From NCBI RefSeq assembly GCF_907163085.1, contig NZ_CAJQTX010000005.1, forward strand, positions 1 to 64,000: 64,000 nucleotides of DNA, in the 5' to 3' direction. Position numbers and translations under genes: made by a program. Below are positions 6,653 to 23,541 of the stretch, piece after piece. The notes beneath the pieces were generated by a model. The model saw only the letters and a list, made by a program, of their open reading frames with translations. It was not told the origin of the DNA and did not search any database. Every line of letters begins with the position of its first letter. The stretch's first letter is position 1. Origin of the DNA: Candidatus Accumulibacter sp. ACC003. Lineage in GTDB: Bacteria; Pseudomonadota; Gammaproteobacteria; Burkholderiales; Rhodocyclaceae.

Positions 6653-7558
6653 GTGGTTGCAACGAGCGAAGGGGAGTGGGTGCACTGCGGTCGCGTATTC
6701 AGCGCCGCGGAGATCGCCGAGGTGTGCGGGACGGTGGCGTGGCTGCCGGGATTGGCGCGCAAGGAGTTGGCGGCGACGGTCTGCGAGCACCTGGGGTGGA
6801 CCACTCTGACAGGGACGGCGAAGATCAGCGCCTGCCTGGAGTTTCTGGAGCGTTTGCAGGCGGCCGGGCTGCTGACACTGCCGGCGATAAGGCCGTCGTC
6901 AGCACGCCGTTGCGCGCCGCCCGCGGCACCCGTAGATACGGTCACCGGGGAGCTTCCCGTGCACTGCGCCCTGTCGGCACTCGCACCGGTCTGCCTGGAA
7001 GTCGTTCGCGACGCGGCGTTGGTGGCGCAGTGGGATGCGCTGGTGGCGCGCTGGCACCCACTGGGTTTCCAGGGGGCCTTCGGCTACCGCCTGCGCTACT
7101 TCATCACGGCGGGCGACCGGCGGCTCGGCAGCGTCCTGCTGGCCGGCGCTGCCCGCGCGGTCGCCGTGCGCGACCGCTGGATCGGCTGGACGGCCCAGGC
7201 CCGCCGCGAGAACCTGGCGCGGGTGGTGAACAACAGCCGCTTCCTGATCTTTCCCCACGTCCGGGTGCCGCATCTGGCCAGTCATGTGCTCGGACAACTC
7301 GCGCGCCGCGCACGCGCGGACTGGCTCGATCACTGGGGCTTCGAGCCCCTGTTGCTGGAGACTTTCGTCGATCCTCGTCACTATACCGGCACCTGTTACC
7401 GCGCGGCCGGTTGGCAGTTGCTCGGGGCAACCAGCGGGCGCGGGCTGGCCCGCCCCGGCCAGTCGTATCGCAGCACGCCCCGCCAGGTGTGGCTCAAACC
7501 GCTGAGCGCCGATTGTCGCGACCGGCTGTGTGCCGCCCCTGGGAGCTCCCGGCCATGA
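6653..7558 (+). CDS. DUF4338 (DruA-like) protein of element A
   Basis: About 301 residues from a GTG at 6653, which has GGAGGT six bases upstream; a TTG at 6623 and a GTG at 6650 are alternatives. The C-terminal two-thirds has the DUF4338 signature also seen twice elsewhere in the window: 'RDRWIGW', 'VVNNSRFLIFP' and 'LLLETFVDPRHYTGTCYRAA'. DUF4338 defines DruA of the Druantia anti-phage system, but no other druantia gene is here. The stop overlaps the transposase start by ATGA, so the protein is probably made together with the transposase and is part of the element. Molecular activity is not known. Confidence 0.8.
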   Translation: MVATSEGEWVHCGRVFSAAEIAEVCGTVAWLPGLARKELAATVCEHLGWTTLTGTAKISACLEFLERLQAAGLLTLPAIRPSSARRCAPPAAPVDTVTGELPVHCALSALAPVCLEVVRDAALVAQWDALVARWHPLGFQGAFGYRLRYFITAGDRRLGSVLLAGAARAVAVRDRWIGWTAQARRENLARVVNNSRFLIFPHVRVPHLASHVLGQLARRARADWLDHWGFEPLLLETFVDPRHYTGTCYRAAGWQLLGATSGRGLARPGQSYRSTPRQVWLKPLSADCRDRLCAAPGSSRP

Positions 7559-9075
7559 GCAAACCCTGCCGTCGCCCGACACGCGCTGCCCTCAAGGAGC
7601 TGCGCTCAGAGAAGAAACGGCAGGAAAAGGCACTGAACGCGAAACGGCGCGCGAGTGGACAAGTCCTCCACTCCCCCACTTCTCTGCCCAACCGATGCTC
7701 AGCCTTCGCGACCGTCGGCGAGGAAAGGGAGGCCCGCGAGGACGCCGTGAGCAAAAAGACGCGTCTCCTGCGCAAAGAGCTACCCGCCTTGCTCGAGCAA
7801 CTGGAACAAATTCCCGACCCGAGAGACCCCAGGAAGCGCCGCCACAAGCTGACCGCGCTGCTGCTTTACGGTCTGCTGATGTTCGTCTTTCAGTTCTCCT
7901 CTCGGCGCGAGACCAACCGCGAAATATCCCGTCCCCAGTTCATGGCCAACCTCCACCTGCTGTTCCCGGAGATCGAGACCCTACCACACGCCGACACCCT
8001 GTTTCGGCTGCTGCGCGACATCGACCTTGACCACCTTGAGCAGGCCCACGTCGATCTGGTGAAGCGGCTGATCCGCGGCAAGAGCTTCCGCCGCTATCTG
8101 ATCAACCACTGCTACCCCATCGCCATCGACGGCTCGCAGAAGGTCGCCGGCGACACCCTCTGGGCGGAGGAACTCCTCCAGCGCACCGTCGGCAAGGAGG
8201 AAACCCGCCACACCCAGTACTTCGTCTACGTCCTCGAGGCCAGCCTGGCTTTCCACAACGGCCTGGTCGTCCCACTGCTCAGCGAGTTCCTCGAACACGC
8301 GCTGGGCGATACCGAAGCGCAAAAGCAGGACTGCGAGCTGCGCGGCTTTGTGCGCTTGAGCGACCGGCTCAAGACGCTGTTCCCCCGCCTGCCGATCCTG
8401 CTCCTGCTCGACGGCCTTTACGCCAACGGGCCGGTGATGCAGCGCTGCTTGCGCGCCCACTGGCAGTTCATGATCGTGCTTAAGGACAAGGATTTGTCCA
8501 CGGTCTGGCAGGAGTTCCGCGCACTCCACGCCCTGAAGCCACAAGCCGTGCAGCGCGCTTGGGGAAGGCGCCGACAACACTTCAGCTGGGTCAACGACAT
8601 CGACTACGCCTTCGCGGCCAACGGGCGTCAGCGTCTCAAGCTGAACCTGGTGGTCTGTGAGGAAAGCTGGGAAAAGATCGATGAACAGGCCAGGACCGTC
8701 ACCGAAACATCGCGCCACGCCTGGCTCTCCAGCCAACCGCTCAGACAAGACAATGTCCATGAGCGCTGCAACCTCGGTGCCCGCCACCGTTGGGGCATCG
8801 AAGCGGGCTTCCTCGTCGAAAAACATCAGGGCTACCACTACGAGCATGCCTTTGCCCTCGACTGGAATGCCATGAAAGGCTATCACCTCCTCATGCGCCT
8901 GGCGCATGTGTTCAATACCCTGGCACGTTTCACCCGGCAGTTACGCAACCTGTATCAAGAACTCGGTGTGCGCGGCGCCATCGCCTTCATCCGTAATTCC
9001 TGTGCTGCGCCCTGGCTTGACCCAGCACGCCTGCGTCTGCTTCTCGCCGAACCGTTCCTGCTGCAACTCGAATAA
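7555..9075 (+). CDS. DDE transposase of element A
   Basis: 506 residues, starting in a 4-bp ATGA overlap with the DUF4338 gene. A basic N-terminus (about residues 1–70) precedes a catalytic core with candidate acidic residues in 'PIAIDGSQK', 'LLLLDGLYANG' and 'RHRWGIEAGF', the order expected of a D-D-E enzyme. The region from 'HADTLFRLLRDIDLDHLEQ' to 'HVFNTLARFTRQL' is colinear and uninterrupted. It should cut at the 17-bp ends of element A and leave a 9-bp duplication. I do not recognise a named IS family with certainty. Confidence 0.8.
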   Translation: MSKPCRRPTRAALKELRSEKKRQEKALNAKRRASGQVLHSPTSLPNRCSAFATVGEEREAREDAVSKKTRLLRKELPALLEQLEQIPDPRDPRKRRHKLTALLLYGLLMFVFQFSSRRETNREISRPQFMANLHLLFPEIETLPHADTLFRLLRDIDLDHLEQAHVDLVKRLIRGKSFRRYLINHCYPIAIDGSQKVAGDTLWAEELLQRTVGKEETRHTQYFVYVLEASLAFHNGLVVPLLSEFLEHALGDTEAQKQDCELRGFVRLSDRLKTLFPRLPILLLLDGLYANGPVMQRCLRAHWQFMIVLKDKDLSTVWQEFRALHALKPQAVQRAWGRRRQHFSWVNDIDYAFAANGRQRLKLNLVVCEESWEKIDEQARTVTETSRHAWLSSQPLRQDNVHERCNLGARHRWGIEAGFLVEKHQGYHYEHAFALDWNAMKGYHLLMRLAHVFNTLARFTRQLRNLYQELGVRGAIAFIRNSCAAPWLDPARLRLLLAEPFLLQLE

Positions 9076-9156
9076 CCTTGCCCAGGCCTGCCCAACACAT
9101 CTTCCCAAGCGCGGCGCACCCCGCGCCGGGAAAGGCTCGCCTGGCGATCGTAACGG

Positions 9157-11532
9157 CAGATTTCCTGATCCCGGCCGGGAATGTAGGTAGAATTCCGGAA
9201 TTGCACGTGGCACTTTATTTTGACGGCCATGATTTTCTTATGGCATAAACCAAGCTTCGCTAGGAGTGCAAGGAGGAGCAGACGTTGAGGCAATCGTGGC
9301 TTCCAGGGTTTCCGGATGGTGCGCAGAAAGTGGGAGAAGGGTTGGCGATTCTGGAGAAGGATGGCCAAGCGATCTACTTTGTTGGGGGAGACAATTACTT
9401 CTCGCACCCCGTAGGAGACGACGCTGGCCGCAGGTTCGCTCTGACCAGCCTGATGGAGAACGGGCACGTCAAGGCGGTCGAACTGGAAAGGCCACCGCTG
9501 TGCATCCCGCACCGCACGCTGATGAACTGGGTGGGACAAAGCCGCAAAGCCGGGCCATCGTCTTTCTTTCGACCGGCGGCGGCGAGCCGGCCGCGGATCA
9601 TGACGCCGGACAAGAGTGCCGAATGCGCGCGGCTGTTGAGCGAGGGAAAGCGTCCTGCCGAAGTGGCACGGCAGGTGGGCGTCCAGGAGTCGACGCTGCG
9701 CAAGGCGATCCGGCGCCAGGGCGTGCCGCAGTTGGCCGCCTTGCCGCAAGAGGCAGGGGAGTTGGAAGCGGCGAGCACCAAGAGTGAGCGCAGCCGGGCG
9801 GATGCGGAAGCCGCCGCGGGGATGGGCACCGCCTGCACGCGCGCCGACGAGCGGATCCAAACGGCGCTGGGATTGGCGACCGGTGCGACGACGCGCTTCG
9901 AAGCGAGCCACGATGTGGCGATGGGGGGGCTGTTGGCCGGCTTGCCGGCCTTGTGCGCGAACGGGCTACTGACCGGCCTGGATCGCCATCTCAAGCTGCC
10001 CCGGGGATTCTACAGCGCCTTGCACATCCTTCTCGTCCTCGGCTTCATGGCCCTGGGGCGAATCAAGCGGCCGGAACATCTGCGACAAACCTCGCCCGGA
10101 GAACTCGGCAAAGTCATCGGCCTGGACCGGGTACCGGAAGTCCGCACCCTGCGGGAAAAGGTCCATCTGCTGGCCAAGACGGGTGACCCGGCAGCCTGGA
10201 TGCGGGATCTCGCGAAGCTCTGGATGGAAAGCGAGCCAGAAGAAGCGGGTTACCTGTATGTCGATGGTCATGTTCGGGTGTATCACGGCGAGCAGGCCAG
10301 GCTGTCGAAGCGCTACGTCTCGCGCGAACGCCTGTGCCTGCGGGGCACCACCGACTACTGGGTTAACGATGCCCTGGGTCGCCCGTTCTTTGTGGTTTCG
10401 CAGCCGCTCAATGACGGACTCGCCGAGACCCTGCTCAAGGACATCGTCCCCCAACTGCTGGAGATTGTCCCGGGACAGCCGACGCCGGCCGAACTGGACG
10501 CCGACCCGACCCTGCACCGGTTTGTCATGGTCTTCGATCGGGAAGGGGCCACCCAGAGTCTCCTCGGCAGACTCTGGAAACAGCGCATCGGCGCACTGAC
10601 CTACCGCAAGAACGTCAAGGACCTCTGGTCCGAAGAGGTGTTTCAGGAACAGGAAGTCCATCTGCCGGCAGGCGGCAGCACCGGGATGAAACTCGCCATG
10701 CGCGAAACCCGACTCGGCACAGGCGATGGCAGCCTGGCCGTGAGCGAAGTTCGTCGGCTGACCCAGACGGGACATCAAACAGCCGTGATCACGACCGCCC
10801 GGCAACTCGGAAACACCACCATCGCTGGGCGGATGTTCGCCCGTTGGTGCCAGGAAAACTACTTCGCGTACATGATGGAACATTATGATATTGATGGGCT
10901 TATCGAGTACGGAGACGAATCTCTTCCCGGCACTCACCAGGTCGTTAACCCCCGCTGGCGGGAACTCGACAAGGCCGTCAGGCAAACCCGCCAGAGCGAA
11001 AGAAAACTGCAGGCCGCAATCGCCAGGACGGCCTTGAACGACGGCGGCGAAATCCAGAAAAACGCCGAGTCTGTCGAAGCACTGCAGGCCGTTCAGGAGG
11101 AGCTCAAGCGACTTTGCGCGGCGCGCAAGGCAAGCCCCCGAAAGATGACGATCGACAGTCTGCCCGAGGCCGAGCGACCGACCCAACTGCCGCCGCTGAA
11201 CAAGATGCTCTGCGATACCGTGAAAATGGTCGCCTACCGGGCCGAGACCGCCATGGTGGCGCTATTGCGCCGCCACTTGAAGAAGGAGGACGACGCACGT
11301 GCGCTCATTCGCGAATTGTTCGTTTCTTCCGCTGACATCGAACCGAACGCGCTAGCCAACACCCTGACCATCAAAATTCACCGGATGGCCAGCCCAGCTC
11401 ATGATCGCGCTATCGCCGCGCTCCTCGAGGAACTCACCCTGCAAGATTTTCCGCATCCGGAAACCGGGGCAAGAATGACCTTCACTCTTGTCTGAAGTGC
11501 CAACCCGGTTTCCTCCGAGATCAGGAAATCTG
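9157..11532 (+). mobile_element. Insertion sequence C, nested in element A
   Basis: A perfect 14-bp terminal inverted repeat, CAGATTTCCTGATC at 9157–9170 and its complement at 11519–11532, is flanked by a perfect 5-bp duplication AACGG (9152–9156 and 11533–11537). The 2376-bp element carries one long gene. Its insertion point is 82 bp past the stop of element A's transposase, so it arrived after element A and did not break a gene. Confidence 0.9.
9285..11495 (+). CDS. Large DDE-type transposase of element C
   Basis: 736 residues. A TTG start is favoured because a full AGGAGG ribosome-binding site (9271–9276) sits eight bases upstream. The N-terminus includes a helix-turn-helix-like segment ('RLLSEGKRPAEVARQVGVQE', about residues 115–135). 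The core has 'GYLYVDGHVRVY' and 'RFVMVFDREGA' as candidate catalytic Asp motifs, and a later segment (about residues 560–620) is rich in charged helices, possibly coiled coil. It fills the only gene space between the terminal repeats of a well-bounded IS with 5-bp duplications, which makes transposase the firm call. The exact family is not recognised. Confidence 0.75.
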   Translation: MRQSWLPGFPDGAQKVGEGLAILEKDGQAIYFVGGDNYFSHPVGDDAGRRFALTSLMENGHVKAVELERPPLCIPHRTLMNWVGQSRKAGPSSFFRPAAASRPRIMTPDKSAECARLLSEGKRPAEVARQVGVQESTLRKAIRRQGVPQLAALPQEAGELEAASTKSERSRADAEAAAGMGTACTRADERIQTALGLATGATTRFEASHDVAMGGLLAGLPALCANGLLTGLDRHLKLPRGFYSALHILLVLGFMALGRIKRPEHLRQTSPGELGKVIGLDRVPEVRTLREKVHLLAKTGDPAAWMRDLAKLWMESEPEEAGYLYVDGHVRVYHGEQARLSKRYVSRERLCLRGTTDYWVNDALGRPFFVVSQPLNDGLAETLLKDIVPQLLEIVPGQPTPAELDADPTLHRFVMVFDREGATQSLLGRLWKQRIGALTYRKNVKDLWSEEVFQEQEVHLPAGGSTGMKLAMRETRLGTGDGSLAVSEVRRLTQTGHQTAVITTARQLGNTTIAGRMFARWCQENYFAYMMEHYDIDGLIEYGDESLPGTHQVVNPRWRELDKAVRQTRQSERKLQAAIARTALNDGGEIQKNAESVEALQAVQEELKRLCAARKASPRKMTIDSLPEAERPTQLPPLNKMLCDTVKMVAYRAETAMVALLRRHLKKEDDARALIRELFVSSADIEPNALANTLTIKIHRMASPAHDRAIAALLEELTLQDFPHPETGARMTFTLV

Positions 11533-11695
11533 AACGGAGCTCCCTCGACCTCTCCTGTCCCACTGACTGAACACCAAACCCCCGCGCCGCAAGCGCTCCC
11601 TTGCCGCTAGCCAACCCCCATCTGGCCGCCTCGGCGGCGAAAGTGGGCGTAACCGGCAAGTGCTGTCGATTCGGGGAGGTCATGCGTCAGGGCTG

Positions 11696-11704
11696 CTTCG
11701 CATT
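11696..11704. repeat. Target-site duplication CTTCGCATT, copy 2 (between elements A and B)
   Basis: Shared boundary: right duplication of element A and left duplication of element B. With G11695 it reads GCTTCGCATT, identical over 10 bp to 13613–13622. Confidence 0.8.
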
Positions 11705-11731
11705 CACGGTAAATTTGTTCTCGTGCCGGGA

Positions 11732-13518
11732 TCAAGGTGATACGTGGCCTGTAGAATTTTTGGTCATGCGCAGGTAGTCGAAGACCAATCGGATGTTGCG
11801 GTTGAGGTGGCGCATTTTTTCGGAAATGCTGGTTTTGCCGTCGGAGAAGTGGTGCAGGATTCCGACGGCAAAGCGGCGCAGGCGTGACATGTTCTCGGGT
11901 CCGTAACCAGTCCGAATACGGCTACGGTCCTCGTCGTAGTTCCAGTCGATGACGTAGTGACAGCGGTTCTCTATCGACCAATGGCCGCGATTGATGGCGA
12001 GGATTTGCTGTGGGCTGGCCTGTTCTGGAGGGCGACTGGTGATCCCGAGAGCGATTTCGTGCGTCCGCTTGCCGCTCTTCTTGTGCAGCACTTCGCGCTC
12101 GATCAAGAACACCTGGCCGACATACGGGAAGTCGAGATAGGCGTTGAGGGCATTGCTGCACCAAATACGCCGAGTCTCGATCCGACCATGGTCAGGTGGC
12201 GAAACCGCCACGAAGTCTGCCCCCTTCCGATCCTGGAAGAGGAGCGCGATATCGGCTTGCAGTGTTGGCTGATTGCCTTTGACCGTGAAGTGATAGTGCG
12301 CCTTGCGCTCCACCAGGTAGGTCGCCAGCTTGCGCTGTGTCAGTAGCGCGTCGGCGGTGATGTCCTTGCCCTGAATATCGATCGCATCGAGCAGGGGTAT
12401 GAACATCCCGATTTCATTGGTCTGCTTGAGCTCGTCCCCGCCATTTACGGGCAAGGTGCCGACTTTTTTTGGGTGTGACACACGCCGGTCTGATGCCCGA
12501 CCACGCTCATGATGTGTGCTTGCTGACCGTGCTCGTCATGGGCATTGCGCATGGTCTTGCCGTCGACCGCCAGACTGGGGTCGTCTTGAGCATAGGCCTT
12601 GTTCCACTGCTGACACGCTTGATCGAGCGCCATGGGATCGACACGGATCAGGACGTCACGAATGATGAACTCGCTGGGTACGCGGTAAACGCCCTTCTCG
12701 CGACGACAGCGGAAACGCTCGCGTGCTTTCGGTGTGAGGTCTTTGGCCCACCCGGCGATGGCTTTGTAGCCCCGCATTCCGCACAAGACCGCCGCCGTGG
12801 CGATGGCCAGAACGGCAGGAAGGGGGTGACGCCTTCCTTGCGCGCGCCGCGGGTAGGCGATGCCGGCAAAGAAATCGGGAAGCGTGCGCATCTGTTCGGC
12901 GGTGAGCATCATCCTGGGCGCTCCTGTGCGATAGCGGGGGTTGAGTATCGAGCGGGAAAGTTGGCCGCGAGCGTCCGCCTGCAAGGGGCGAACAAAGACA
13001 ACTTTGGGCGACGTCGGGTGGGCGCTGTAGCCTTCTCGGGTGCGGCGAAAGCCTTGCGTCAGCCCCAGAGGCGTCCAGTTCGCGGCGCGATAGACTGTCC
13101 CCTGGAAGCGCGAGGGGTCCACAAAGGTCTCCAGCAGTAACAGCGGCTTCCCGAAATGCGCCTGCCAATCCTCGGCGACCCGTCGCTCGCACAGCGAGAG
13201 CACCTTGGAGCCGAGATTGGGGTAATGCCAATCGGGAAGGATCAGAAAGCGACTGTTGTTGGCGACCAGGCCCAAGCGATCGTACTGATGCCGATAGTCC
13301 CAGCCGATCCAGCGGTCACGAACGCCGCATTTCCAGGCCGCCGCAGAGAAACTCAGCAGGGCCGTCCACTTTTCGCCGTAGGTGGCCACGTACCAAAGCG
13401 TGTGCCCGATCTTCGCCAGGTCGCCCAGGTAGTGATGCTCTGCCATCAACTCCCGATAGCGAGCCTCTTCGCTCTTGCCCACCAAGCGAACACGCAATGC
13501 ACCAAGAACGCTTTCCAT
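11732..13518 (-). CDS. DUF4338–ISAs1 transposase fusion, interrupted by a -1 frameshift at an A7 run
   Basis: Two frames make one protein of about 595 residues. Frame one (13518 to 12445) holds DUF4338 ('RDRWIGW', 'VANNSRFLILP', 'LLLLETFVDPSRFQGTVYRA') followed by the N-terminal part of an ISAs1 transposase ('MLTAEQMRTLPDFFAGI', 'DPSLAVDGKTMRNAHDE', first catalytic Asp). Frame two (12481 to 11732) continues with 'LLDAIDIQGKDITADALLTQ', 'HYHFTVKGNQPTLQADI' and 'NRGHWSIENRCHYVIDW'. The join needs a -1 slip at A-AAA-AAG (12469 to 12463 on this strand), giving ...TQKKVGTL. This may be programmed frameshifting, or a simple indel or assembly error in the homopolymer. Confidence 0.75.
12463..12469 (-). 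other. Candidate -1 slippery heptamer A AAA AAG
   Basis: On the minus strand the zero-frame codons are CAA AAA AAG, so the canonical X-XXY-YYZ pattern A-AAA-AAG lies in the right phase, exactly where the two transposase frames must join. A short stem GGCA/TGCC follows two bases downstream; it is weak as a stimulator. Confidence 0.5.
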
Positions 13519-13613
13519 GCGCCATTTATACGGACTTCCGGCGCAGATGTCCAGGGGGAAGAACTAACTGCTTGATTGCCCGTGCGTTGCCTGAGAGGAC
13601 AAATCCACCCTGG

Positions 13614-13622
13614 CTTCGCATT
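13614..13622. repeat. Target-site duplication CTTCGCATT, copy 3 (right of element B)
   Basis: Third copy of the 9-mer, and with G13613 a 10-bp match to the left flank of element B. It ends eight bases before the -35 box of the tRNA promoter, so the pile stops just short of disrupting it. Confidence 0.8.
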
Positions 13623-13630
13623 CACGGCGC

Positions 13631-13659
13631 TTTACAGCAGGCAATCGTCTGCCTATAAT
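13631..13659 (+). promoter_or_regulatory. Sigma-70 promoter of the tRNA-Ala–tRNA-Glu operon
   Basis: TTTACA (13631–13636), a 17-bp spacer and a consensus TATAAT (13654–13659), placed 18 bp before the tRNA-Ala 5' end. Confidence 0.8.
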
Positions 13660-13677
13660 CCGCGTTCTTTCGGGCCA

Positions 13678-13753
<76 letters not shown>

Positions 13754-13774
13754 ACAAGCCGAAAGAAGTTCCGG

Positions 13775-13850
13775 GTCCCCATCGTCTAGAGGCCTAGGAC
13801 ACTACCCTTTCACGGTAGGTACCGGGGTTCGAATCCCCGTGGGGACGCCA
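13775..13850 (+). tRNA. tRNA-Glu (anticodon UUC)
   Basis: A 76-nt cloverleaf with acceptor GTCCCCA pairing with TGGGGAC, anticodon arm CTACC-CTTTCAC-GGTAG (anticodon TTC) and encoded CCA. The Ala–Glu tandem is common in betaproteobacteria. Confidence 0.97.
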
Positions 13851-14142
13851 GTATTGGCCTATACGGCGCAGCGGAACACCGCGCTGCGGCCTCGCTTTCT
13901 CGTTGTTTCCTTCCCTTTCCGCTTTCCCTTCGTCTTTCCCGATCTCGGAAAGCCCCGCGGAGTGTCCAGGCCAGCTGGCCGCCGACGTGAATTGCGCGTA
14001 CGCCCCTACAACGCGCTGTCTGTAGCGATGGCGACCAGCGCCGAGCTGGCGAAAGACGTCTTGCGGAATCCCTGTACGCCCTGCTCTTCCACCCGCTTAC
14101 CCGCCGCGACTCGATTCGTGGCAACCTCAAACGGAGCCCCCC

Positions 14143-14622
14143 ATGAAAGGCGACAAAACGGTCATTCAGCTGCTCAACAAGCAGCTGGCCAACGAGCTTG
14201 CAGCAATCAACCAGTATTTCCTGCACGCGCGGATGTACAAGAACTGGGGTTTCAACGCCCTCGGCAAGCACGAGTACGAAGAATCGATCGAAGAGATGCA
14301 GCACGCCGACAAGATCATCGAGCGCCTGCTGTTTCTTGAGGGCCTGCCGAAAATGGAGATGCCCAAGCTGTTGATTGGCGAGAACGTTCCCGAGTGCCTG
14401 AGCGGCGACCTCAAGCTCGAGCGCGGCGCGCATGCCGACCTGATCGCCGGCGTAGCCCACTGCGAGTCGGTGAAGGACTACGTTTCTCGCGACCTGCTGC
14501 AGGAGATCCTCAACGACACCGAAGATCACGTCGACTACCTCGAAACGCAGCTCGAGCTGATCGAAAAGGTCGGCGTGCAAAACTATCTGCAGACGCAGAT
14601 GGGCGTGGCATCCGGCGATTGA
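14143..14622 (+). CDS. bfr: Bacterioferritin
   Basis: 159 residues, the normal length, preceded by GGAG. It forms the 24-subunit, heme-containing iron store. The heme ligand Met52 and the ferroxidase residues Glu18, Glu51, His54 and Glu93 are present. At the position three before the His of 'DTEDH', where E. coli Bfr has Glu127, this protein has Thr126, so one diiron ligand may differ. Glu127 in this numbering is the neighbouring residue. No bacterioferritin-associated ferredoxin gene is adjacent. Confidence 0.95.
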   Translation: MKGDKTVIQLLNKQLANELAAINQYFLHARMYKNWGFNALGKHEYEESIEEMQHADKIIERLLFLEGLPKMEMPKLLIGENVPECLSGDLKLERGAHADLIAGVAHCESVKDYVSRDLLQEILNDTEDHVDYLETQLELIEKVGVQNYLQTQMGVASGD

Positions 14623-14716
14623 GCATCCGCCAGCGCGGTCGGGGCCAGAGGGGCGTATCGCCTCCATCGTCCCGGTCGCGCGTGCCCGCATTGGCCGCGC
14701 TCCGGGCACCCTGCCG

Positions 14717-15169
14717 CTATTCCGGCTGGCGCGAATCGATGCTGATCGTCACCGGGCCATCGTTGACCAGGTGAACCTGCATATCAGCGCCGAAGACGCC
14801 GGTGGCGACGCGGCGTCCGAGTGCCACTTCCAGCCGCGCGACAAAGCGCTCGAAAAGCGGCTGCGCGACTTCCGGTGGCGCCGCGCGGCTCCATGAAGGA
14901 CGGTTGCCTTTACGGGTCGATGCGAAGAGCGTGAACTGGCTGACTGCCAGCACCTCGCCATCGGCATCGACGACGCTGCGATTCATCACGCCCTCGGCAT
15001 CGGCAAAGATGCGCAGCCTGCCCAGTTTGGCGGCCATCCAGTCGAGGTCGGCGGCGGCGTCGCAGGCTTCGAAGCCGGCCAGGACCAGCAGGCCTCTAGC
15101 AATACTGCCGCTGACCTGGCCATCGACTTCGACACGCGCCGCAGCGACGCGCTGGACGACGACCCTCAT
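14717..15169 (-). CDS. dtd: D-aminoacyl-tRNA deacylase
   Basis: 150 residues from the ATG at 15169, starting '[17 protein letters not shown]'. It hydrolyses D-aminoacyl-tRNAs and mischarged Gly-tRNA(Ala), keeping D-residues out of translation. The catalytic 'SQFTLFAS' and the 'NDGPVT' gly-pro motif near the C-terminus are present. The frame is open further upstream, but the ATGA overlap with the acetyltransferase stop and the family N-terminus fix the start. Last gene of a three-gene minus-strand operon. Confidence 0.95.
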
Positions 15170-15642
15170 GGTGACGCCGCACGTTCCGGCGCGCACTCCA
15201 GATTCTTGACCATGCACGTCGCCGATGCCGGGCACAGGCGGCGGAACTGGGCGGTTTCGGCAATCGCCGCCGGCACCGCGTTTCGCGCCAGCGGCCGGAA
15301 ACCGTGGCCCGCAAAGAAGTCCTGCGCGGAGGTGGTCAGCAGAAAGACCTGTTCTCGCCGCATCGTTCTCGCCCGTTCCTCCAGCGCCTCTAGCAGCCGA
15401 GCGGCCAGCCCGCGCCGTCGGTAGGCCGGCGCTACGGCCAACGAGCGCAACAGCAGCTCGCCGCCACACGACTCGAGGGCGGCGGCGGCGATCAGGCCAG
15501 CATCGTCGCGACAGACCAGAAACGCCGGCAAATGCTGCGTTTCGAGGTCGGCGATCGGCAGGGCGCATTCATCAAGCAGGGCGAGCAAGGCCGGCAACTC
15601 GTCGAGCCGTGGCTCGCTCATCGCCAAGGGCGCCGATGCCAC
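15166..15642 (-). CDS. GNAT N-acetyltransferase, ArsN2-like
   Basis: 158 residues from a GTG at 15642 with GAAGAG just upstream; an ATG at 15621 is the alternative. The GNAT acetyl-CoA site is '[20 protein letters not shown]', and the C-terminus has the '[15 protein letters not shown]...CPASATCM' pattern of the ArsN2 group, which is usually linked to arsenic detoxification. It lies six bases after the zinc transporter gene and overlaps dtd by four bases. There is no ars operon here (arsC is 16 kb away), so the substrate is open. Confidence 0.75.
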
Positions 15643-15647
15643 GCTCT

Positions 15648-16640
15648 TCAGCTTCCCGGTACGCCGCGTTGTTCGCCGGGCGCCAGCCAGCGCACCGTGT
15701 TGTGCAGCGGTTCCGGCTGCAACGTCACGTGCGTGATGCTCTGCTCGGCCAGCGCCTGGCGGCTGGCGGCGAGCACCGCCGGCCAGTGCGCCAGCGATTC
15801 GACGACCAGATGTGCCGACAGCGCGATGCGGTTCGAAGACAAGGTCCAGATATGCAGATCATGCACCGAGGCGACGCCCGGCACGCCGGCCAGCAGGCGA
15901 CCGATCTGCTCGGTGGACAGGCTCACCGGTACGCCTTCCATCAGCGCCTGCAGGACCTCACGCAACAGGCGCAGACTGGAAACGAGCATCAGCGCGCAGA
16001 TCAGCAGCGACAGCAGCGGGTCGACGGTCATCCAGCCGGTCCACATGATCACCGCCCCGGAGACCAGCGCGGCGACCGAGCCGAGCAGGTCGCCGAGGAC
16101 GTGCAGCAGCGCGCCGCGGGTATTCATCGTCTGCTCGCCGTGCATCAGCAACCAGGCGACGCCGATGTTGAGGCACAGGCCAATCGCCGCAACGACGGTC
16201 ACCGCTTCGCCGTTGACTTCGCCGGGTTCGAGAACGCGGCGCACCGCCATCACCGAGATGCCGACCACCACCAACACCATGAAGACGACGTTGGCCAACG
16301 CCGCCAGTGTCTCGACACGGCCGTAGCCGTAGGTGTGGCGTTGCGTCGGCGGCCGCTGCGACAGCCAGGCGGCAAAAGCGGCGAGGCCCAGCGAGGCGCT
16401 GTCGGTGACCATATGGCCGGCGTCGCCGAGCAGCGCCAGCGACCCCGACCAGAAACCGGTCGCCGCTTCGACGGCGGCAAAGCCGAGCGTCAATACCAGC
16501 GCCCAGATCAGGCGTGGGCCGGCGTCGGCGTGGTGGTGATGGGCGTGGCCGCTGTGGTCGTGGTCGTGCTCATGGTCGTGAGCGGCGTGGTGATCGTGTT
16601 GCTCGTGCGGATGGTGATCGTGGGGAGTGTGCTCGCTCAT
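15648..16640 (-). CDS. Cation diffusion facilitator, zinc efflux (ZitB/CzcD type)
   Basis: 330 residues. The first 40 residues are extremely His/Asp-rich, a likely metal-binding tail. Six membrane segments follow. The metal site is seen as H-x3-D in 'GDAGHMVTDSASLG' (TM2) and 'HVLGDLLGS' (TM5), the HD–HD arrangement typical of zinc exporters. A cytoplasmic C-terminal domain includes 'SVHDLHIWTLSSNRIALSAH'. It exports Zn2+ (possibly Co2+/Cd2+) in exchange for protons. First gene of the operon with the acetyltransferase and dtd. Confidence 0.9.
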   Translation of the reverse strand: MSEHTPHDHHPHEQHDHHAAHDHEHDHDHSGHAHHHHADAGPRLIWALVLTLGFAAVEAATGFWSGSLALLGDAGHMVTDSASLGLAAFAAWLSQRPPTQRHTYGYGRVETLAALANVVFMVLVVVGISVMAVRRVLEPGEVNGEAVTVVAAIGLCLNIGVAWLLMHGEQTMNTRGALLHVLGDLLGSVAALVSGAVIMWTGWMTVDPLLSLLICALMLVSSLRLLREVLQALMEGVPVSLSTEQIGRLLAGVPGVASVHDLHIWTLSSNRIALSAHLVVESLAHWPAVLAASRQALAEQSITHVTLQPEPLHNTVRWLAPGEQRGVPGS

Positions 16641-16652
16641 GGTGCCGGCATT

Positions 16653-16712
16653 TTAATGTGAAAGTCGCGGCCGCGACTCTCGAATCTTTCTTTTCCCCGC
16701 TGCGGAAGAAGG
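16653..16712. repeat. 60-bp dispersed intergenic repeat, copy 1
   Basis: Begins with TTAATGTGAAAGTCGCG, identical to 59210–59226, and continues with lower similarity to ...GAAGAAGG. Both copies sit just upstream of minus-strand transporter genes (the zinc exporter here, an MFS transporter at 59 kb). Confidence 0.6.
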
Positions 16713-16955
16713 ATGAGCTTGTGGTCTGTAGTTTGACGCAGATTGCGGACGACGCCCTGAAGTCAGACCGACGGGCGAGAGCAAATGCTTGTGCAACAGG
16801 GAAAGGTCGCTATCGGCGGAACTTCCATACGGCTTCTCTGAAGGACGGAACGAGCTGAATGGCGCGACGCGCCTGCCTGTCGCTAAGCCTATTTGACCGG
16901 CCAATGAGCGGTTGGCGGAAACGTGTCCAAAGCGTAGATGACTTTGGATGGCTTG
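16713..16955. other. Intergenic stretch without recognisable gene
   Basis: Between the repeat and the toxin–antitoxin operator. Short open frames exist on both strands but none has a ribosome-binding site or recognisable protein. It must hold the promoter of the zinc exporter operon and the beginning of the toxin–antitoxin promoter. Confidence 0.4.
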
Positions 16956-16977
16956 CTGTAGCACGAAGGTGCTACAG
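16956..16977. promoter_or_regulatory. Palindromic operator of the toxin–antitoxin operon
   Basis: CTGTAGCAC-GAAG-GTGCTACAG: a perfect 9-bp inverted repeat with a 4-bp spacer, 35 bp upstream of the antitoxin ATG. Ribbon-helix-helix antitoxins typically bind such sites to repress their own operon. Confidence 0.75.
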
Positions 16978-17011
16978 TTGTTTCTCGCTTATGAAATGAC
17001 TGGAGTCAACC

Positions 17012-17296
17012 ATGCCCACGACGACGATCCGTTTGCCGGACGACCTCAAAGCTCGCGTTGCCGAAGCAGCCAAACGTTCCGGTACCACCACCCATGGTTT
17101 CATCCTCGCCGCCATTGCGGAGAAGGCGGAACACGAAGAGCGACGCGCAGATTTCAATCAGGCCGCAGAGAATCGCTATGCCAAAATCACCACCTCTGGA
17201 GAAACGATTTCCTGGCAGGAAATGCGCGCCTTTCTCGAAGAACGCCTTGCCGGGAATTCGGTGCCCGCCCCCACACCACGCCAGCGCGTGCGCTGA
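17012..17296 (+). CDS. Ribbon-helix-helix antitoxin (CopG/ParD-like)
   Basis: 94 residues with GGAG upstream of the ATG. The N-terminal 45 residues ('TTTIRLPDDLKARVAEAAKR' onward) are a ribbon-helix-helix DNA-binding domain; the C-terminal half is charged and should wrap the toxin. The toxin gene starts two bases after the stop. The perfect palindrome upstream is the expected binding site, with autorepression relieved when toxin is in excess. Confidence 0.88.
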   Translation: MPTTTIRLPDDLKARVAEAAKRSGTTTHGFILAAIAEKAEHEERRADFNQAAENRYAKITTSGETISWQEMRAFLEERLAGNSVPAPTPRQRVR

Positions 17297-17298
17297 CA

Positions 17299-17595
17299 AT
17301 GTCGCGCATCGAATTGGCGCCTGAGGTCGGTGACGATTTTGATCGCATCCTGGACCACCTCGCCAGGTATAAGGTCGAGCAAGCTGCATCACGCATACGG
17401 GAAATCGTCGAAGCGATCAACGTACTGGAGTCCAACCCGCTGATCGGCAGACCGGCACGAGACGGCATGCGGGAACTGGTGATCGGGCGTCGGGCGCACG
17501 GCTATCTGGCCTTGTACCGTTATGTTGCCGAGTTGGACATCGTTTTTGTCCTTGCCGTACGCAGTCAGCGGGAAGCGGGTTTCGTCGGTGACTAG
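17299..17595 (+). CDS. RelE/ParE family toxin
   Basis: 98 residues from the ATG at 17299; a longer upstream frame overlaps the antitoxin and is rejected. Features of the ParE fold: 'IELAPEVGDDFDRILDHLAR' at the N-terminus, 'NPLIGRPARDGMRELVI', and a C-terminal 'IVFVLAVRSQREAG'. ParE toxins poison gyrase whereas RelE cuts mRNA; the 'VRSQREAGF' ending favours ParE-like, without certainty. Tight spacing to the antitoxin indicates one transcript. Confidence 0.85.
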   Translation: MSRIELAPEVGDDFDRILDHLARYKVEQAASRIREIVEAINVLESNPLIGRPARDGMRELVIGRRAHGYLALYRYVAELDIVFVLAVRSQREAGFVGD

Positions 17596-17746
17596 GCTGG
17601 CCTGACCGTGCGGGCGCCAGCCGCAGCGCCGCGACCCACCCCACGGCGCTCGACACCGTCACTGCGCGGAGCGCAGCGACGCGGCAGTCCAGCAAACCGG
17701 CCGGCCACGTGCTCATGACCGCCAGCCGGGATCGCCGCTCATTGAC

Positions 17747-18811
17747 TCACGCAGTTGGCCGAAACAGCGCGCCGCTGGCCACCCCTCTCGCCGTCCGCAA
17801 CAGAGTCAGCAGCCAGATCGCCACGAGCAGGCACCAGCAGCCGATTCCGAACGCTTCGACGCCGCCCAGGCTGGCGTCATGAGCGAGCCGGAAGCTGGCC
17901 GAGACAAAGGCCCCGAGCGGAAAGGTGAAGCCCCACCACGACAGCGCGAAAGGTAGCATTCCCCGCCGCCAGGCGGCCGCTGTGAGCAGCGCGGCCATCA
18001 CCACCCACCAGGCGCCGAAGCCCCACAGGAGCAGGCTGACGAAGACCAGCGTGCCGCCTGGCACCGCCACCGGCAATTGCTCGGCAAGATTCAGCAGGCT
18101 CAGGGAAATCGCGCCGATCGGCCCGAGATGTATCCACACTGTCGGCGCCAGGGGGCCGAAGGCAGGCTTGGCCAGATACTTGCGCTGCAACGTCAGGGCC
18201 AGCAGGCTCAGGTACATCAGCGAACCAGCACCGAGCCCGACGACATTGGCCAGCAACGCCAGCTCGCGCGCACTCCCGTGCAGGTGGCCAAGCAGCGGCC
18301 CACCAGCAACCGGGATCACCACCAGGCCGACCGCCGGGATGAAGATCGCTGGTGTCACGTGCTCCAGCGCGACGTGCTCGCCGCTGAAGATCGCGTAGAG
18401 CACGGCAAAACTGAAAACGAAGGTGAGCACCATCGCCGGCCACCAGAAAAGCAGCGCCAACTCGACCTGGCCGCCAAAGGCGAGGAACTCCGTCGCGATG
18501 ACCAGCATGGCAATCGACAATGTCGGATAGAAGCTCGCCTGCACCGGGTGCTTAAAGGTCGCCAGCGCCAACTCGCGGTACGCCACCCAGCGGCCCAGCC
18601 AAGGCACGAGCAACACGCAGAAAAGCAGCAGGTTGAAGTAGTGAATACCCCAGGCGAGCGGCGCGAGGATCGGCCAACGTGTAGAAAGCGTCAGCGTCGT
18701 AATCGCCAGCACGCCACTGCCCATGACTGCCGAAAACCAGCCGGGGGCGAAGTGACGGACGATCTCGGAGAACTTCGGATAGGTGGGCTGTGCGGGTAGA
18801 GCGGCGGACAT
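17747..18811 (-). CDS. TDT-family transporter (TehA/SLAC1-like)
   Basis: 354 residues from the ATG at 18811, chosen over the TTG at 18820 because AAGGA lies nine bases before it. About ten hydrophobic segments cover the protein, beginning 'FAPGWFSAVMGSGVLAITTL', the family's N-terminal helix. Relatives include the TehA tellurite/dicarboxylate channel, Ssu1 sulfite pumps and SLAC1 anion channels. No tehB is adjacent. A 16-bp palindrome 19 bp upstream of the start suggests control by a dimeric repressor. Substrate cannot be told from sequence. Confidence 0.8.
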   Translation of the reverse strand: MSAALPAQPTYPKFSEIVRHFAPGWFSAVMGSGVLAITTLTLSTRWPILAPLAWGIHYFNLLLFCVLLVPWLGRWVAYRELALATFKHPVQASFYPTLSIAMLVIATEFLAFGGQVELALLFWWPAMVLTFVFSFAVLYAIFSGEHVALEHVTPAIFIPAVGLVVIPVAGGPLLGHLHGSARELALLANVVGLGAGSLMYLSLLALTLQRKYLAKPAFGPLAPTVWIHLGPIGAISLSLLNLAEQLPVAVPGGTLVFVSLLLWGFGAWWVVMAALLTAAAWRRGMLPFALSWWGFTFPLGAFVSASFRLAHDASLGGVEAFGIGCWCLLVAIWLLTLLRTARGVASGALFRPTA

Positions 18812-18829
18812 CGGGAGCAATCCTTGTGT

Positions 18830-18845
18830 ATTAGCGAACGCTAAT
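18830..18845. promoter_or_regulatory. Palindromic operator ATTAGCG-AA-CGCTAAT
   Basis: A perfect 7-bp inverted repeat with a 2-bp centre, just upstream of the TehA-like gene start. Its size and symmetry suit a TetR-type or similar dimeric regulator; no regulator gene is adjacent. Confidence 0.6.
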
Positions 18846-19156
18846 TATCGCTCAAGAGGGCGTTATCGGGCTTGGCAGCGTGCTGGGTCGATGGTCGCAC
18901 CAAGCTGCGTTGAGTAACTCCTGTAGACAGATTGGTTTTCGGTTCGTATGCTACACAACTTGCGGGCAGTGGGGGTTTCAGGCGGACCGAAACGCTTGGG
19001 TTCGGACGGTGTGTTTTTGCGACTGAGCAGGCGCGTTCGTGCTTGCCGTCAGCATATAGTACAGATTCTTACGCATTTTTATCCGGCTTATGCACCCTTG
19101 TGCGCCGAGATATATACCGACATCGGTGCCGACTAAACATTATACGAACGAACGGT
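18846..19156. other. Intergenic region upstream of the SLATT gene
   Basis: AT content rises here relative to the flanks. Short frames lack ribosome-binding sites. It must contain the SLATT promoter; the region just before the ATG (TAAACATTATACGAACGAAC) is AT-rich, but no consensus pair is clear. Confidence 0.35.
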
Positions 19157-19588
19157 ATGACTGACCACATTAATCGGCAAACAGCACCTCAGATTGAGCA
19201 CGCAAACTACTATCTGATGAAGATTTGGGCAAGCAGAGGCTCTCGCTTCGTCGCAAACCGCCGTCTACAACGGAAAAATCACGCTTCTCAGATGGTCCTC
19301 TCTTTTTTTGCGGTGGCGGTCATTATAGCCGGCATTTGGCTCCTGACCATCCCCCCGGAACAAAAGAGATTAGCTGACTTCATCAACTTTTTAGCGATAG
19401 ATGCATCGGTGTTCATACTCGTTCTCAGCAATTTGGAATACTCAAAGAACTACGCCGTAACAGCCGACCGCATGCTCAAAGGCGCTCAAGCCCTTTCGCC
19501 GCTTCACGATGAGTTGAAAATGGCCATTCGATACGAAACGATAACGAGTGAGTTCATGCAAGGCGTTATCGGGCGTTATAACGAATAA
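19157..19588 (+). CDS. SLATT-domain two-TM protein
   Basis: 143 residues from the ATG at 19157. The layout is that of SLATT (SMODS and SLOG-associating 2TM effector): an N-terminal helix with 'RGSRFVANRRLQRKN', TM1 at about residues 44–65, TM2 at about 76–96 ('IDASVFILVLSNLEYSKNY'), then a C-terminal helical tail. SLATT proteins are predicted membrane-perturbing effectors of nucleotide-sensing, anti-phage systems. No nucleotidyltransferase, SLOG or reverse transcriptase gene is beside it, so it may be solitary or have lost its partner to the IS91-type element that follows. Codon use is AT-richer than its neighbours. Confidence 0.65.
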   Translation: MTDHINRQTAPQIEHANYYLMKIWASRGSRFVANRRLQRKNHASQMVLSFFAVAVIIAGIWLLTIPPEQKRLADFINFLAIDASVFILVLSNLEYSKNYAVTADRMLKGAQALSPLHDELKMAIRYETITSEFMQGVIGRYNE

Positions 19589-19875
19589 GGATAGATCGTG
19601 CGAAGCCACGATCTGATCCGTTTGTTGGACGAGCCCGGGCCGGAGCGCTGGGCGCGCCCTCTGCAAATATCTTTTTTGGATTTACCCCGCAGGCATGAAT
19701 GCCGAAGGGCGGGGAGCGGGCCGTCGCCGCGCGCTGCGGCACCGTCAGCGAAGATCGCGCAAATCCGGCCGTTTTGGCGTCCCGGCCACTGAACTCCGGG
19801 CGACCCCGTCACTCAGCTTGGGGAAACTGAAGTCCCAAAGGCGGCCGGACAGCGCTGTGAAGGCGGCTTACACGA

Positions 19876-20982
19876 TCAGGCAGCGATCGCGACGAGCGGT
19901 GGAGCAGCGACGAAGGCGGGCGATGTTGATCGAATACGCGTCCGGACAATTGACATCACGGAGCCACAGCACGGGCAAAGCATCGCTGGCCGCTCCTTGC
20001 GCGGCGGCGTGAAGCGGCTGGGATCGAACTTCAGCAAGCGGTGCAGCAAACTGATCAGGCGCTTGCAATTGGCGTGCAGGAAGCCGAAATTGCGGGCGCG
20101 GCGAAAGCCCTTGGGCAGCACGTGCTGGAGAAGCAGCCAGAGGAAATCAGCGCCGCTGAGCGAGCGCTTTTCCGACTTGCCGGTTTGTGCGTTGCGATAG
20201 CGGAAGCTCACCCGCCCATCCTTACAAGCGAGGATGTCCTGTTCACGGATGACGCCGCGGTAGAGGTAACGACCGAGGTAGATCAAGGCCTTCTCGCCGC
20301 TGCCCACCGATTTGCAGTGCGCCACCCATTCCCGCGGATAGGACGCCGGCAGGCAAATGCCGGCCGCCTCGATCGCCGCCAGCATTTTGGCCCGGAAGAC
20401 CTTGGCCATCGCCCTCTCGTTGAACAGGTAAGTGCCGTTCTTGCCGCGCCGCTTGCGTCGCCAGCGCTGCTTCGCCGCATCGATCGCTGCCGCGGGGACG
20501 ACGAGATGGACATGCGGGTGGAAGTCGAGCCGACGCGAGTGCGTGTGCAGCACCGCGATGGCGCCGGGCGTGCCCTGCAACTGCCGGTCGTTCTGACTGA
20601 AGCGGTGCACCGTTTCCCAGGCACAGCGCATCAAGCCATCGAAGACGACGTCGGCGTGCGCCGCAGCGAGCCCGCGCAATTCGGCCGGCAGCGTGAAGGT
20701 CAGCAGAAAGTAGTCGGCCGGGACGAGGCGCTCTATCTGACGTTCCAGCCATTGCTGGCTCTCGTGGTGCTGGCAGTGCGGGCAAAGGCGATGGCCGCAG
20801 GAATGCGGAACGAGTTTTTGCTGATCGCAGCCTTCGCACTGGAGCTGCATCATCGGGCTGGCCGGGCCGCGGCAATCGCGCATCGCCGAGAGTGCCCGAA
20901 GCTGATCGAAGCTCAGGCGGTGGCGAAATTGCGTCATGAAGTCCGCTTCGAATTCGGCAATGACAGAGCCGAGGCGGATCAT
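19876..20982 (-). CDS. IS91-family Y2-type transposase
   Basis: 368 residues from the ATG at 20982, fixed by AAGGGGA seven bases upstream and an ATGA overlap with the recombinase stop. The N-terminus has a Cys/His zinc-binding segment ('CEGCDQQKLVPHSCGHRLCPHCQHHES'-type pattern, about residues 50–75). The HUH motif is in 'DFHPHVHLVV' and the paired tyrosines in 'IYLGRYLYRGV'. Such enzymes move elements by rolling-circle single-strand transfer. The gene appears complete. Confidence 0.9.
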   Translation of the reverse strand: MIRLGSVIAEFEADFMTQFRHRLSFDQLRALSAMRDCRGPASPMMQLQCEGCDQQKLVPHSCGHRLCPHCQHHESQQWLERQIERLVPADYFLLTFTLPAELRGLAAAHADVVFDGLMRCAWETVHRFSQNDRQLQGTPGAIAVLHTHSRRLDFHPHVHLVVPAAAIDAAKQRWRRKRRGKNGTYLFNERAMAKVFRAKMLAAIEAAGICLPASYPREWVAHCKSVGSGEKALIYLGRYLYRGVIREQDILACKDGRVSFRYRNAQTGKSEKRSLSGADFLWLLLQHVLPKGFRRARNFGFLHANCKRLISLLHRLLKFDPSRFTPPRKERPAMLCPCCGSVMSIVRTRIRSTSPAFVAAPPLVAIAA

Positions 20983-21913
20983 CGCGGCGTCCCCTTGCTC
21001 AGGCAAAAGCGGTCCATCAGCGCGTTGATGCGGTCGATGGCGTGATGCCGGGTTTGATCCGTCAGATGGGTGTAGCGAACCGTCGTGAGAATCGACTGAT
21101 GGCCGAGAATGCTCTGCACCTCGGTGAGCTCGACGCCCGCCTCGATCAGGTGCGTGGCATAGGCGTGACGCAAACTGTGCGGCGAAATGTTTTTTTTAGC
21201 CCGCAGGATTCGACCACCGCCCGCAGTGCCTTCTGAACGCCGCTGCGATTGAGCGGTGTCCTGGCGCTGCTCGCACCTGGCAAGCCGCCGCGGCGATTGG
21301 GAAACAGCAGAACGGGATTACGGTGGCGCTGCCAGAAACAACGCAGGAGTCGGTAGGTGGCCGTCGGCAGCGGCACCAGGCGATCCTTGTTGCCCTTGGC
21401 ATCGCGGATATGCACCCGCCCGCGCGCGCCGTCGATGTCGGCGACCGTCAGCCGTAAACCTTCGCCCAGGCGCAGGCCGAGACTGTAGAGTGTGAAGAAG
21501 AAGACCCGGTAACTGAGCACCTGCGTGGCCAGGAAAATCCGCTCGGTCTCCTCGACCGTGACGATGTCCGGCAGGCGCTGTGAACGCGGCGGCTTGATCA
21601 GACCGGGCGCCACCCAGGGTTTCTTCAGCACGTGCTCGTAGTAGAACTTGAGACCGTACAGATCGAGCTTGAGCGAACTCCAGGAGTGCGTCTCACGCAG
21701 GTCTGCAAAGTAGTCCAACAGGTCGGCCTCGCTCAGATCGTCGATCTGATGAGCGAAGTAATCTCCCACCCGGCGGACGGCGCGCGAATACGCGTCTATC
21801 GTCTTCGGCTGCAAGCCCTTGAGCTTCAGGTGCTTCTGGTGCAGCTCGTAGTTCGTGTCAAAAATCGTCGTTGCGACAGCGGACATCTCTTCCATCTTGC
21901 GGTAACCTCGCAT
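20979..21913 (-). CDS. Tyrosine recombinase of the IS91-type element, frameshifted at an A8 run
   Basis: Frame one (21913 to 21146) holds the SAM-like core-binding domain ('LKGLQPKTIDAYSRAVRRVG') and the first catalytic Arg in 'YSLGLRLGEGLRL'. Frame two (21173 to 20979) carries 'RHAYATHLIEAGV', 'ILGHQSILTTVRYTHLT' with the catalytic His-x-x-Arg, His and Tyr. The frames join if the ribosome slips -1 at A8 (21197 to 21190), which restores '...GLKKNISPHSLRHAYATH', a normal recombinase sequence. Either programmed frameshifting or a homopolymer indel explains this. The start may be the internal ATG at 21895. Confidence 0.75.
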
Positions 21914-22069
21914 TCGTCATGAACGTCCCTCGGATGAGGGGCGAGGTCACATCTTGAGTCAACGCGACGACAGCACCGGGGTTTCCTCCGCGTAGCGGCT
22001 TCGTCCAACAAGATAAACAATGAGTTTGAGGTTCAGCACGAAGATATCGACTATATCTACTTTCAGAGC

Positions 22070-22246
22070 ATGCACCCGCACAAGTTCCATCTCACGGGAT
22101 TTCAAGGCACCCTGAAGTGGCTCAAATTCCGAATTCAATATTTCCTATACATATGGGGCTTGTACATCGTGTGCGTTGTCGTCCCACCCCTACTCATCGC
22201 GGGAGGAATTTACGGATTCCCTTCATGCCTGGCGAGCATCCGCTAG
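22070..22246 (+). pseudogene. 3' remnant of an unrecognised gene with one membrane segment
   Basis: An AT-rich frame open from about 21.94 kb to a TAG at 22246, with its first ATG at 22070 ('MHPHKFHLTGFQGTLKWLKF...'). A clear hydrophobic stretch, 'FLYIWGLYIVCVVVPPLLIA', precedes the end. There is no ribosome-binding site and the frame runs back into the IS91-type element, so it looks like the tail of a gene cut by that insertion. I do not recognise the family. Confidence 0.4.
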
Positions 22247-22328
22247 TTCGTATAACCCTGCGCTCCAGAGGACGTCAGCAACCGGGCTTCGCCCGCTCGC
22301 CGCTGCCCCGAGCTTCGGCGTCATGTTT

Positions 22329-22356
22329 GGGTTTAGGTCGTTTCGTGTGGAACCGG
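22329..22356 (+). repeat. Solitary MITE end
   Basis: GGGTTTAGGTCGTTTCGTGTGG followed by AACCGG matches the terminal repeat of the two MITE copies at 22454 and 27890 closely, but no matching opposite end is visible. It is likely a decayed third copy. Confidence 0.55.
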
Positions 22357-22683
22357 CCACCAAACGCATCGGGGCCACGAACGCATCGGGGCCAGGTCTT
22401 TCTTCTTGCCTTCGTATAAAACCAGATGGCACGTATAGGGCAGGAGCAAAGGCGGGTCTATGTCGTTTCGTGTGGAACGGGCAACGACATCCGCCGCTGA
22501 ACAGGCATAGCCACCGTGACCAGCGGCGTTGCCAGCGTTTCTGGCGCTGTCAAGGGCGGGCGAAGCGAACCCTTTACTGCGCCAGAAACGCTAGCAAGCT
22601 CAAGGGCTTGGGGCTGGTTGCGGTTTGTCGCAGCGTAAGTATTCGGCCAACCCGTAGTGAGCCAGCGCCGTTGGCGAGGCCGG

Positions 22684-23541
22684 TTAGCGGCAGAGGATTG
22701 ATCGGAAGGCTCTGTGAAGGGGATAGAGCCAGATATCCTTGATCGGGAGGATGGGCTTGCTGGTGGGGCACTTCTTGCCTCGGCCGGCGGTTTGGCCGAC
22801 CTTGATCCAGTTGGCGGCCTGGTAGCAGGTGCCGCGATGGCGGGGGGTCTCGACGAAGGTTTCGAGCAGCACGGGGCGGTAACCGTAGCGCGCCAGCCAG
22901 TCCTTGGGCAGTTGCCGCTGCATGAGCGAGAGGATCTTGGAGGCCAGGCCCTTGCACTGGATCCAGGGCAGGATCAGAAAGCGGGCATTGTTCACCACCA
23001 GTTGCAGGTTCCTTTGTCGCTGCTCATCGTGCCAACCGATGAATTGCTCGCGCGCGGCGAGTTTCCAGGCGCTGGCGGCGAAGCTGAGCAAGGCGACGAG
23101 TGTCTCGCCGGCGAAGACGAAGTATCGGCTCTGACTGCCGGCCATGGGCGTGTGGCCGAGATAGTGGTAACGAGCGATGTACTCGTTCCACAGACGCGAG
23201 TTCGCCGAACCGACGACCTGTCGCACCGAGAGAGGCGGCAGTTCATGCACCGGCTGAGTGAGCAAGGGTTGTGGATCGGTGGCGTGCGTGGGCCGATACT
23301 CGGGTTGGCGAGGAGCGGTCCGTCGTGCAGCCGGCAGGGTGAGCAGGCCGTCGGCTTGCATGCGCAGCATGGCCACCCGGCAGGTCATATCCTTCAGCTC
23401 ACCATTGGGCTTGCGCCAGTCGAAGAGCTCGCACACCTGACGCGAGAGTTGTGCGCGGCTGGCGCCGGGAGGGGCCTCGATCAGGCCGCGGATCGTCTGC
23501 AGTTCGTCGGCGGTAAAGTGGCGCCCGCAATAAGGCTTCAC
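22684..23541 (-). CDS. DUF4338 (DruA-like) protein of the IS66-type element
   Basis: 285 residues from a GTG that overlaps the tnpC stop as GTGA, so translation is coupled to the transposase. The N-terminus has a short helical domain ('LSRQVCELFDWRKPNGELKD'), also present in element A's DUF4338 protein ('VCEHLGW...'). The signature appears as 'REQFIGW', 'VVNNARFLILP' and 'VLLETFVETPRHRGTCYQAANW'. It lies within the IS66 inverted repeats, so it moves with the element. The biochemical role is unknown. Confidence 0.8.
   Translation of the reverse strand: MKPYCGRHFTADELQTIRGLIEAPPGASRAQLSRQVCELFDWRKPNGELKDMTCRVAMLRMQADGLLTLPAARRTAPRQPEYRPTHATDPQPLLTQPVHELPPLSVRQVVGSANSRLWNEYIARYHYLGHTPMAGSQSRYFVFAGETLVALLSFAASAWKLAAREQFIGWHDEQRQRNLQLVVNNARFLILPWIQCKGLASKILSLMQRQLPKDWLARYGYRPVLLETFVETPRHRGTCYQAANWIKVGQTAGRGKKCPTSKPILPIKDIWLYPLHRAFRSILCR

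Follow-up and report, generated by a model that had tools for sequence, protein, structure and literature searches.

The closest described relatives of the genes treated here come from a phage, from two families of insertion sequences (ISs) and from a defence system. According to its annotation, the phage Mu protein Mom (PF25680; PDB 8bv8) needs Com as an aid to its production and acts on the phage genome before packaging. The DruA protein of the Druantia defence system (PADLOC PDLC00002) belongs to the Pfam family PF14236 (DUF4338), hereafter DruA. A stretch of 64,000 nucleotides from Candidatus Accumulibacter sp. ACC003 (contig NZ_CAJQTX010000005.1, positions 1 to 64,000; the window) encodes three DruA proteins, each coupled to a different transposase. 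We find that DruA repeatedly accompanies DDE transposases and can be exchanged among their classes, and we tentatively suggest that it is a Mom-like DNA-modifying enzyme that protects the DNA of the element.

One of the three elements resembles tnpC-only IS66 elements, which we take to be the ISBst12-like subgroup, in TnpC, in its 8-bp target duplication and in terminal inverted repeats (TIRs) that start with GTAA. Many IS66 elements also carry tnpA and tnpB; the window element lacks both and carries druA. A second element shares the transposase domains and the 10-bp duplication of the ISAs1 family but differs by an N-terminal DruA, a likely −1 frameshift and insertion upstream of promoters. 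DruA of Druantia gives a profile match of 96.5% (E 7.5e-10), but is a protein of ∼ 400 aa or more. Mom is only ∼ 15–20% identical to DruA, which has an additional N-terminal part and is encoded in small IS elements.

Three DruA genes within complete elements

All three window proteins match PF14236 above its cut-off of 27 bits (89.8 bits, E 2.2e-25; 89.6 bits, E 2.7e-25; 138.7 bits, E 2.9e-40, in the order of the genes), which bears out the three DUF4338 proteins named in the first-pass annotation. The junctions and the placement of each gene inside its element, both read there from the letters, also hold; ends and target duplications were fixed by aligning the copies in the genome of the window (G000).

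The first druA (6653..7558, + strand, GTG start) overlaps by ATGA (7555–7558) with the gene of a DDE transposase (7555..9075, +) that carries PF13808 and a weak PF01609, a pair also found in ISAs1. In NCBIfam this transposase gave no match to NF033564 (ISAs1) and only a weak one to IS1380. Because it has PF13808 in common with ISAs1 but misses the NCBIfam cut-off for that family, we call the element, DDE1, no more than ISAs1-related. DDE1 spans 6499..11695 (+), has the TIR CAGCsCTGAmGCATGAC and was fetched in 18 copies. Its 9-bp target duplication (CTTCGCATT, 6490..6498 on the left, 11696–11704 on the right) is identical in 17/17 copies that have both ends.

The second DruA (about 12949–13518) is fused to the N-terminus of an ISAs1 transposase, as had been noted, with the refinement that the transposase is spread over two frames. 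DruA and the N-terminal part share one frame (12445..13518, −; PF14236 E 2.7e-25, PF13808 E 2.1e-18), and the C-terminal part follows in the −1 frame (11732..12481, −; NF033564 E 1.9e-39, 135.8 bits against a cut-off of 70; the N-terminal part alone scores 50.8). Most copies of the genome show the same split, their two open frames being 372 and 267 codons long. At the junction lies the slippery string CCCAAAAAAAG (12463..12473, −), a candidate −1 frameshift site. Since it is unchanged in five loci (L269–L273) although the proteins diverge to 82% identity, the full product probably requires programmed frameshifting there. The element (11705..13612, −) is flanked by 10-bp duplications, GCTTCGCATT, at 11695–11704 and 13613–13622, which are identical in 13/14 copies.

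The third druA (22684..23541, −), with predicted N-terminal helix-turn-helix (HTH)-like helices and a Mom-like GNAT domain, starts inside the stop codon of tnpC (GTGA, 23541–23538). The tnpC gene (23538..25328, −) encodes an IS66 transposase (PF03050 E 2.3e-58; NF033517 297 bits, cut-off 180). As only 34 bp separate the end of the element (22635..25362, −; TIR GTAAGTATTCGG) from tnpC, there is no tnpA or tnpB. Its 8-bp duplication, here GTCGCAGC, is identical in 19/20 copies, a count that leaves out one locus (L076) in which a single end was found.

These elements are abundant. The genome holds 83 PF14236 matches, far above chance, which were sorted by score bands, open-frame lengths and fetched loci into 32 of IS66 type, 25 of ISAs1 type, 21 of DDE1 type, four Tn5-type fusions and one remnant (L053) with no transposase nearby. 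DruA adjoins 29/29 full or nearly full copies of TnpC and 18/18 DDE1 transposases; one IS66-type DruA (C11:122776) stands without TnpC. Long pieces of the DDE1 and ISAs1-DruA copies are 99.7–100% identical (a few truncated pieces 96.9–99.5%), and the window IS66 copy is ∼ 94–95% like the 20 other fetched copies. Thus druA is carried inside complete, recently amplified elements. Three loci, L050, L051 and L052, bear on the Tn5-type DruA element; L052 contains, still unoccupied, the site into which the L050 copy inserted.

DruA across genomes and transposase classes

Among 398 Pseudomonadota genomes searched with the Pfam model, DruA occurs sporadically, in 17 including that of the window. For the 16 others the context was judged by reading 1.5-kb flanks, a minority of which were also scanned with Pfam. 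In eight, DruA stands beside or is fused to a transposase (ISAs1-, Tn5-, UPF0236-, IS1634- or IS66-type), and two more were assigned by DruA type alone. The remainder comprise Druantia-like cases (G245, G361), a TniQ neighbour (G219), large multidomain proteins (G002, G071) and a remnant (G026). One chromosome, of the Arenicellales (G643), has 52 DruA matches, with copies 96–100% alike over long pieces and fusions of 774, 791 and 671 aa to IS4-, Tn5- and ISAs1-type transposases respectively.

A wider set was obtained by scanning genome contigs with a DruA alignment and taking the best 80 of 552 loci by similarity to IS66 DruA, so that it is tilted to the IS66 type. A transposase on the same strand within 700 bp accompanies DruA in 72/80 loci (IS66 55, Tn5-type 8, DDE_Tnp_1 6, and one each of UPF0236, ISAs1-like and IS1634-type), some of the reference transposases having been taken from these very loci after naming by Pfam. 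None was found within that distance in L143, L148, L163, L176, L183, L188, L191 and L194; two of these, L143 and L191, run into the end of the contig or stretch. Gene order varies both ways, and fusions occur at either end of the transposase. A quick, unrooted tree was built from 78 domains (62 of the 80 loci and 16 others), with long branches flagged by the program. It requires at least 10 switches of transposase class where six is the minimum possible; the starred branches alone force fewer. The tree spans Pseudomonadota, Bacillota, Planctomycetota, Acidobacteriota, Spirochaetota and Actinomycetota, with many metagenome bins. The dN/dS ratios of DruA (0.08–0.26) lie beside those of the transposases (0.11–0.30), and DruA is under purifying selection. 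The data support the recurrent partnership with transposases that the first-pass annotation had proposed, and show in addition that DruA is exchangeable among DDE transposases. Its own counter-case, a rare and lineage-specific association, applies in the first half (17/398 genomes) and fails in the second (six phyla).

In L093 a Druantia-type DruA lies directly next to a TniQ gene; TniQ genes are known from Tn7/Tn5053-type transposons. DruA forms part of large proteins in L101, L102 and L108, in L101 together with an AAA/STAND-type ATPase domain.

Insertion upstream of promoters and neighbouring genes

The position of sigma70-like −35 boxes in element flanks was compared with shuffles. In the 3′ flank of DDE1 the best promoter has its −35 at +18 in 13/18 sites (z of the mean score 6.6), and a two-position cluster holds 14 sites where the largest in shuffles holds six. 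The 5′ flank of ISAs1-DruA has a −35 at +19/+20 in 10/24 sites (z 6.3). The opposite ends of both elements and both ends of IS66 gave z values of −0.3 to 1.3. DDE1 elements in other species of the genus have TTG at +18 in 9/16 distinct sites (one at the opposite end) and TTT in two more (offset z 10.0). Of the few ISAs1-DruA sites in those species, L274 fits, L271 and L272 fit by the −10 alone, and L270 and L273 do not. In the window, a promoter-like TTTACA-17-TATAAT (13631..13659, +) begins at +19 from the ISAs1 end, before tRNA-Ala (13678–13753), and to judge from the sequence the DDE1 and ISAs1-DruA elements probably share one target upstream of this promoter. The insertion position would be about −53 to −45 relative to the promoter. 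The literature searches made here listed no earlier report of such insertion. Yeast Ty elements land beside Pol III promoters, and fixed-distance insertion before promoters would be a bacterial parallel.

The offsets in two druA-bearing elements are what would be expected if DruA steered insertion to these sites, and an ISAs1 element of the same genome without DruA (ISAs1-A, 27 flanks) shows little (z −0.5; offset z 2.1 at +17/18). However, another DruA-less group from other genomes (ISAs1-B, 28 flanks) shares this geometry, with boxes at +19 (offset z 4.5; overall z 2.3), whereas IS66-DruA (56 flanks) has nothing at +18 to +20; its z of 3.6 at the odd offset +8 gauges the noise, so 4.5 is not large. 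Nor was the geometry seen by eye in the ISAs1-, IS4- and Tn5-type fusions of G643 (2–6 copies each; four for ISAs1-DruA). Since ISAs1-B shows the geometry and IS66-DruA does not, targeting appears to follow certain ISAs1-like transposases, and target choice by DUF4338, one of the roles suggested earlier, is very improbable.

Other genes lie within or near the elements. DDE1 contains a nested Transposase_29 IS (9157..11532, +; gene 9285–11495; TIR CAGATTTCCTGAT; 5-bp duplication AACGG), which is outside the finding. A defence-like protein with Mrr_cat, NACHT and NCH1 (25544–27889; no PADLOC match) adjoins the IS66 element. An IS91-type Y2 transposase gene stands next to one for an integron-integrase-like tyrosine recombinase (19876–21913), and a SLATT_5 two-transmembrane effector-type protein is encoded at 18932–19588.

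Likeness to Mom and the role of DruA

The structure model of DruA has a GNAT fold whose best match is Mom, above other GNATs, and N-terminal HTH-like helices are predicted. At the places of the invariant residues of Mom, located by weak but agreeing alignments, DruA has His and Ser in 73/73 rows, Tyr in 72/73 and an acidic residue, at the Asp place, in 68/73. The Pfam Mom model matches 42/58 DruA relatives at E ≤ 1, and one protein (P0094) carries both Pfam labels. On this model DruA would be a Mom-type enzyme that modifies DNA bases by adding a small group of acyl type. Its substrate may be DNA rather than protein, and probably the DNA of the element itself, reached through the HTH-like part or, in fusions, the DNA-binding domain of the transposase. 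The element so modified would evade host nucleases while it moves, the benefit being protection from restriction. A generic benefit of this kind fits the exchange of druA among transposase classes better than does a step of one transposition reaction. We put this reading at close to an even chance. Several observations weigh against it. The IS66 DruA of the window scores 15.2 bits on PF25680, below the cut-off of 27.1, and has no real match in a purpose-built Mom hidden Markov model; hhalign aligns DruA with Mom at a probability of only 8% (E 0.004). The Asp place is Glu or Asp in just those 68 rows, and the place of Mom Tyr49 is Tyr in 65 and Pro in six of 73, DDE1 DruA being among the latter. 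A common fold also leaves the substrate undefined, as GNATs acylate proteins, tRNA and small molecules too, and the fusions hint that DruA works within the transposition complex.

This last point leads to a subunit of the transposition machine, which binds the ends or aids strand transfer, any acyltransferase activity being either directed at the transposase or no longer present. It would account for the N-terminal fusions to ISAs1, Tn5-type and IS4-type transposases, for DruA at the C-terminus of IS66 TnpC in five loci (judged by open-frame length), for the start/stop overlaps and for the tnpC + druA content of IS66 elements in two genomes of different classes. Yet relatives of one such transposase class move without DruA (ISAs1-A, ISAs1-B), and catalytic-type residues are retained beyond what mere binding needs; we consider such a subunit somewhat unlikely. 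DruA could also be cargo that acetylates protein or tRNA, either regulating the transposase or forming an addiction module that resembles GNAT toxins. With two genes in 2.7 kb, however, the IS66 elements leave no space for an antitoxin gene, Mom outranks other GNATs as a match, and the HTH-like helices suggest contact with DNA, so that cargo of this kind is distinctly unlikely. Of the roles offered by the first-pass annotation we therefore prefer evasion of host defence, on the new ground of the modelled likeness to Mom.

The relation to Druantia is looser. The PADLOC DruA model gives 18.6 and 14.6 bits on two window proteins and no match on the ISAs1-fused DruA. With these weak scores and no closed open reading frame above 1051 aa, too short for a DruE-type helicase, no Druantia system was recognized in the window. 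None of the three His/Ser/Tyr places is kept in five Druantia rows. The earlier suggestion that Druantia recruited DUF4338 from transposons fits the missing His and Ser, but the tree leaves the family unrooted. On a wider and doubtful view, Mom-type DNA hypermodification would be more than a peculiarity of phages: a mobile module, exchanged across bacterial phyla by ISs of at least six transposase classes, with which they mark themselves. Druantia would later have adopted it, lost the catalytic residues and come to read foreign or marked DNA.

Anti-restriction DNA modification is best known from phages. If DruA acts like Mom, simple transposons would bring their own DNA-modification enzyme as an anti-restriction strategy, and the so far unexplained DruA of Druantia would be given a relative in biochemical terms, together with an active site that can be tested.
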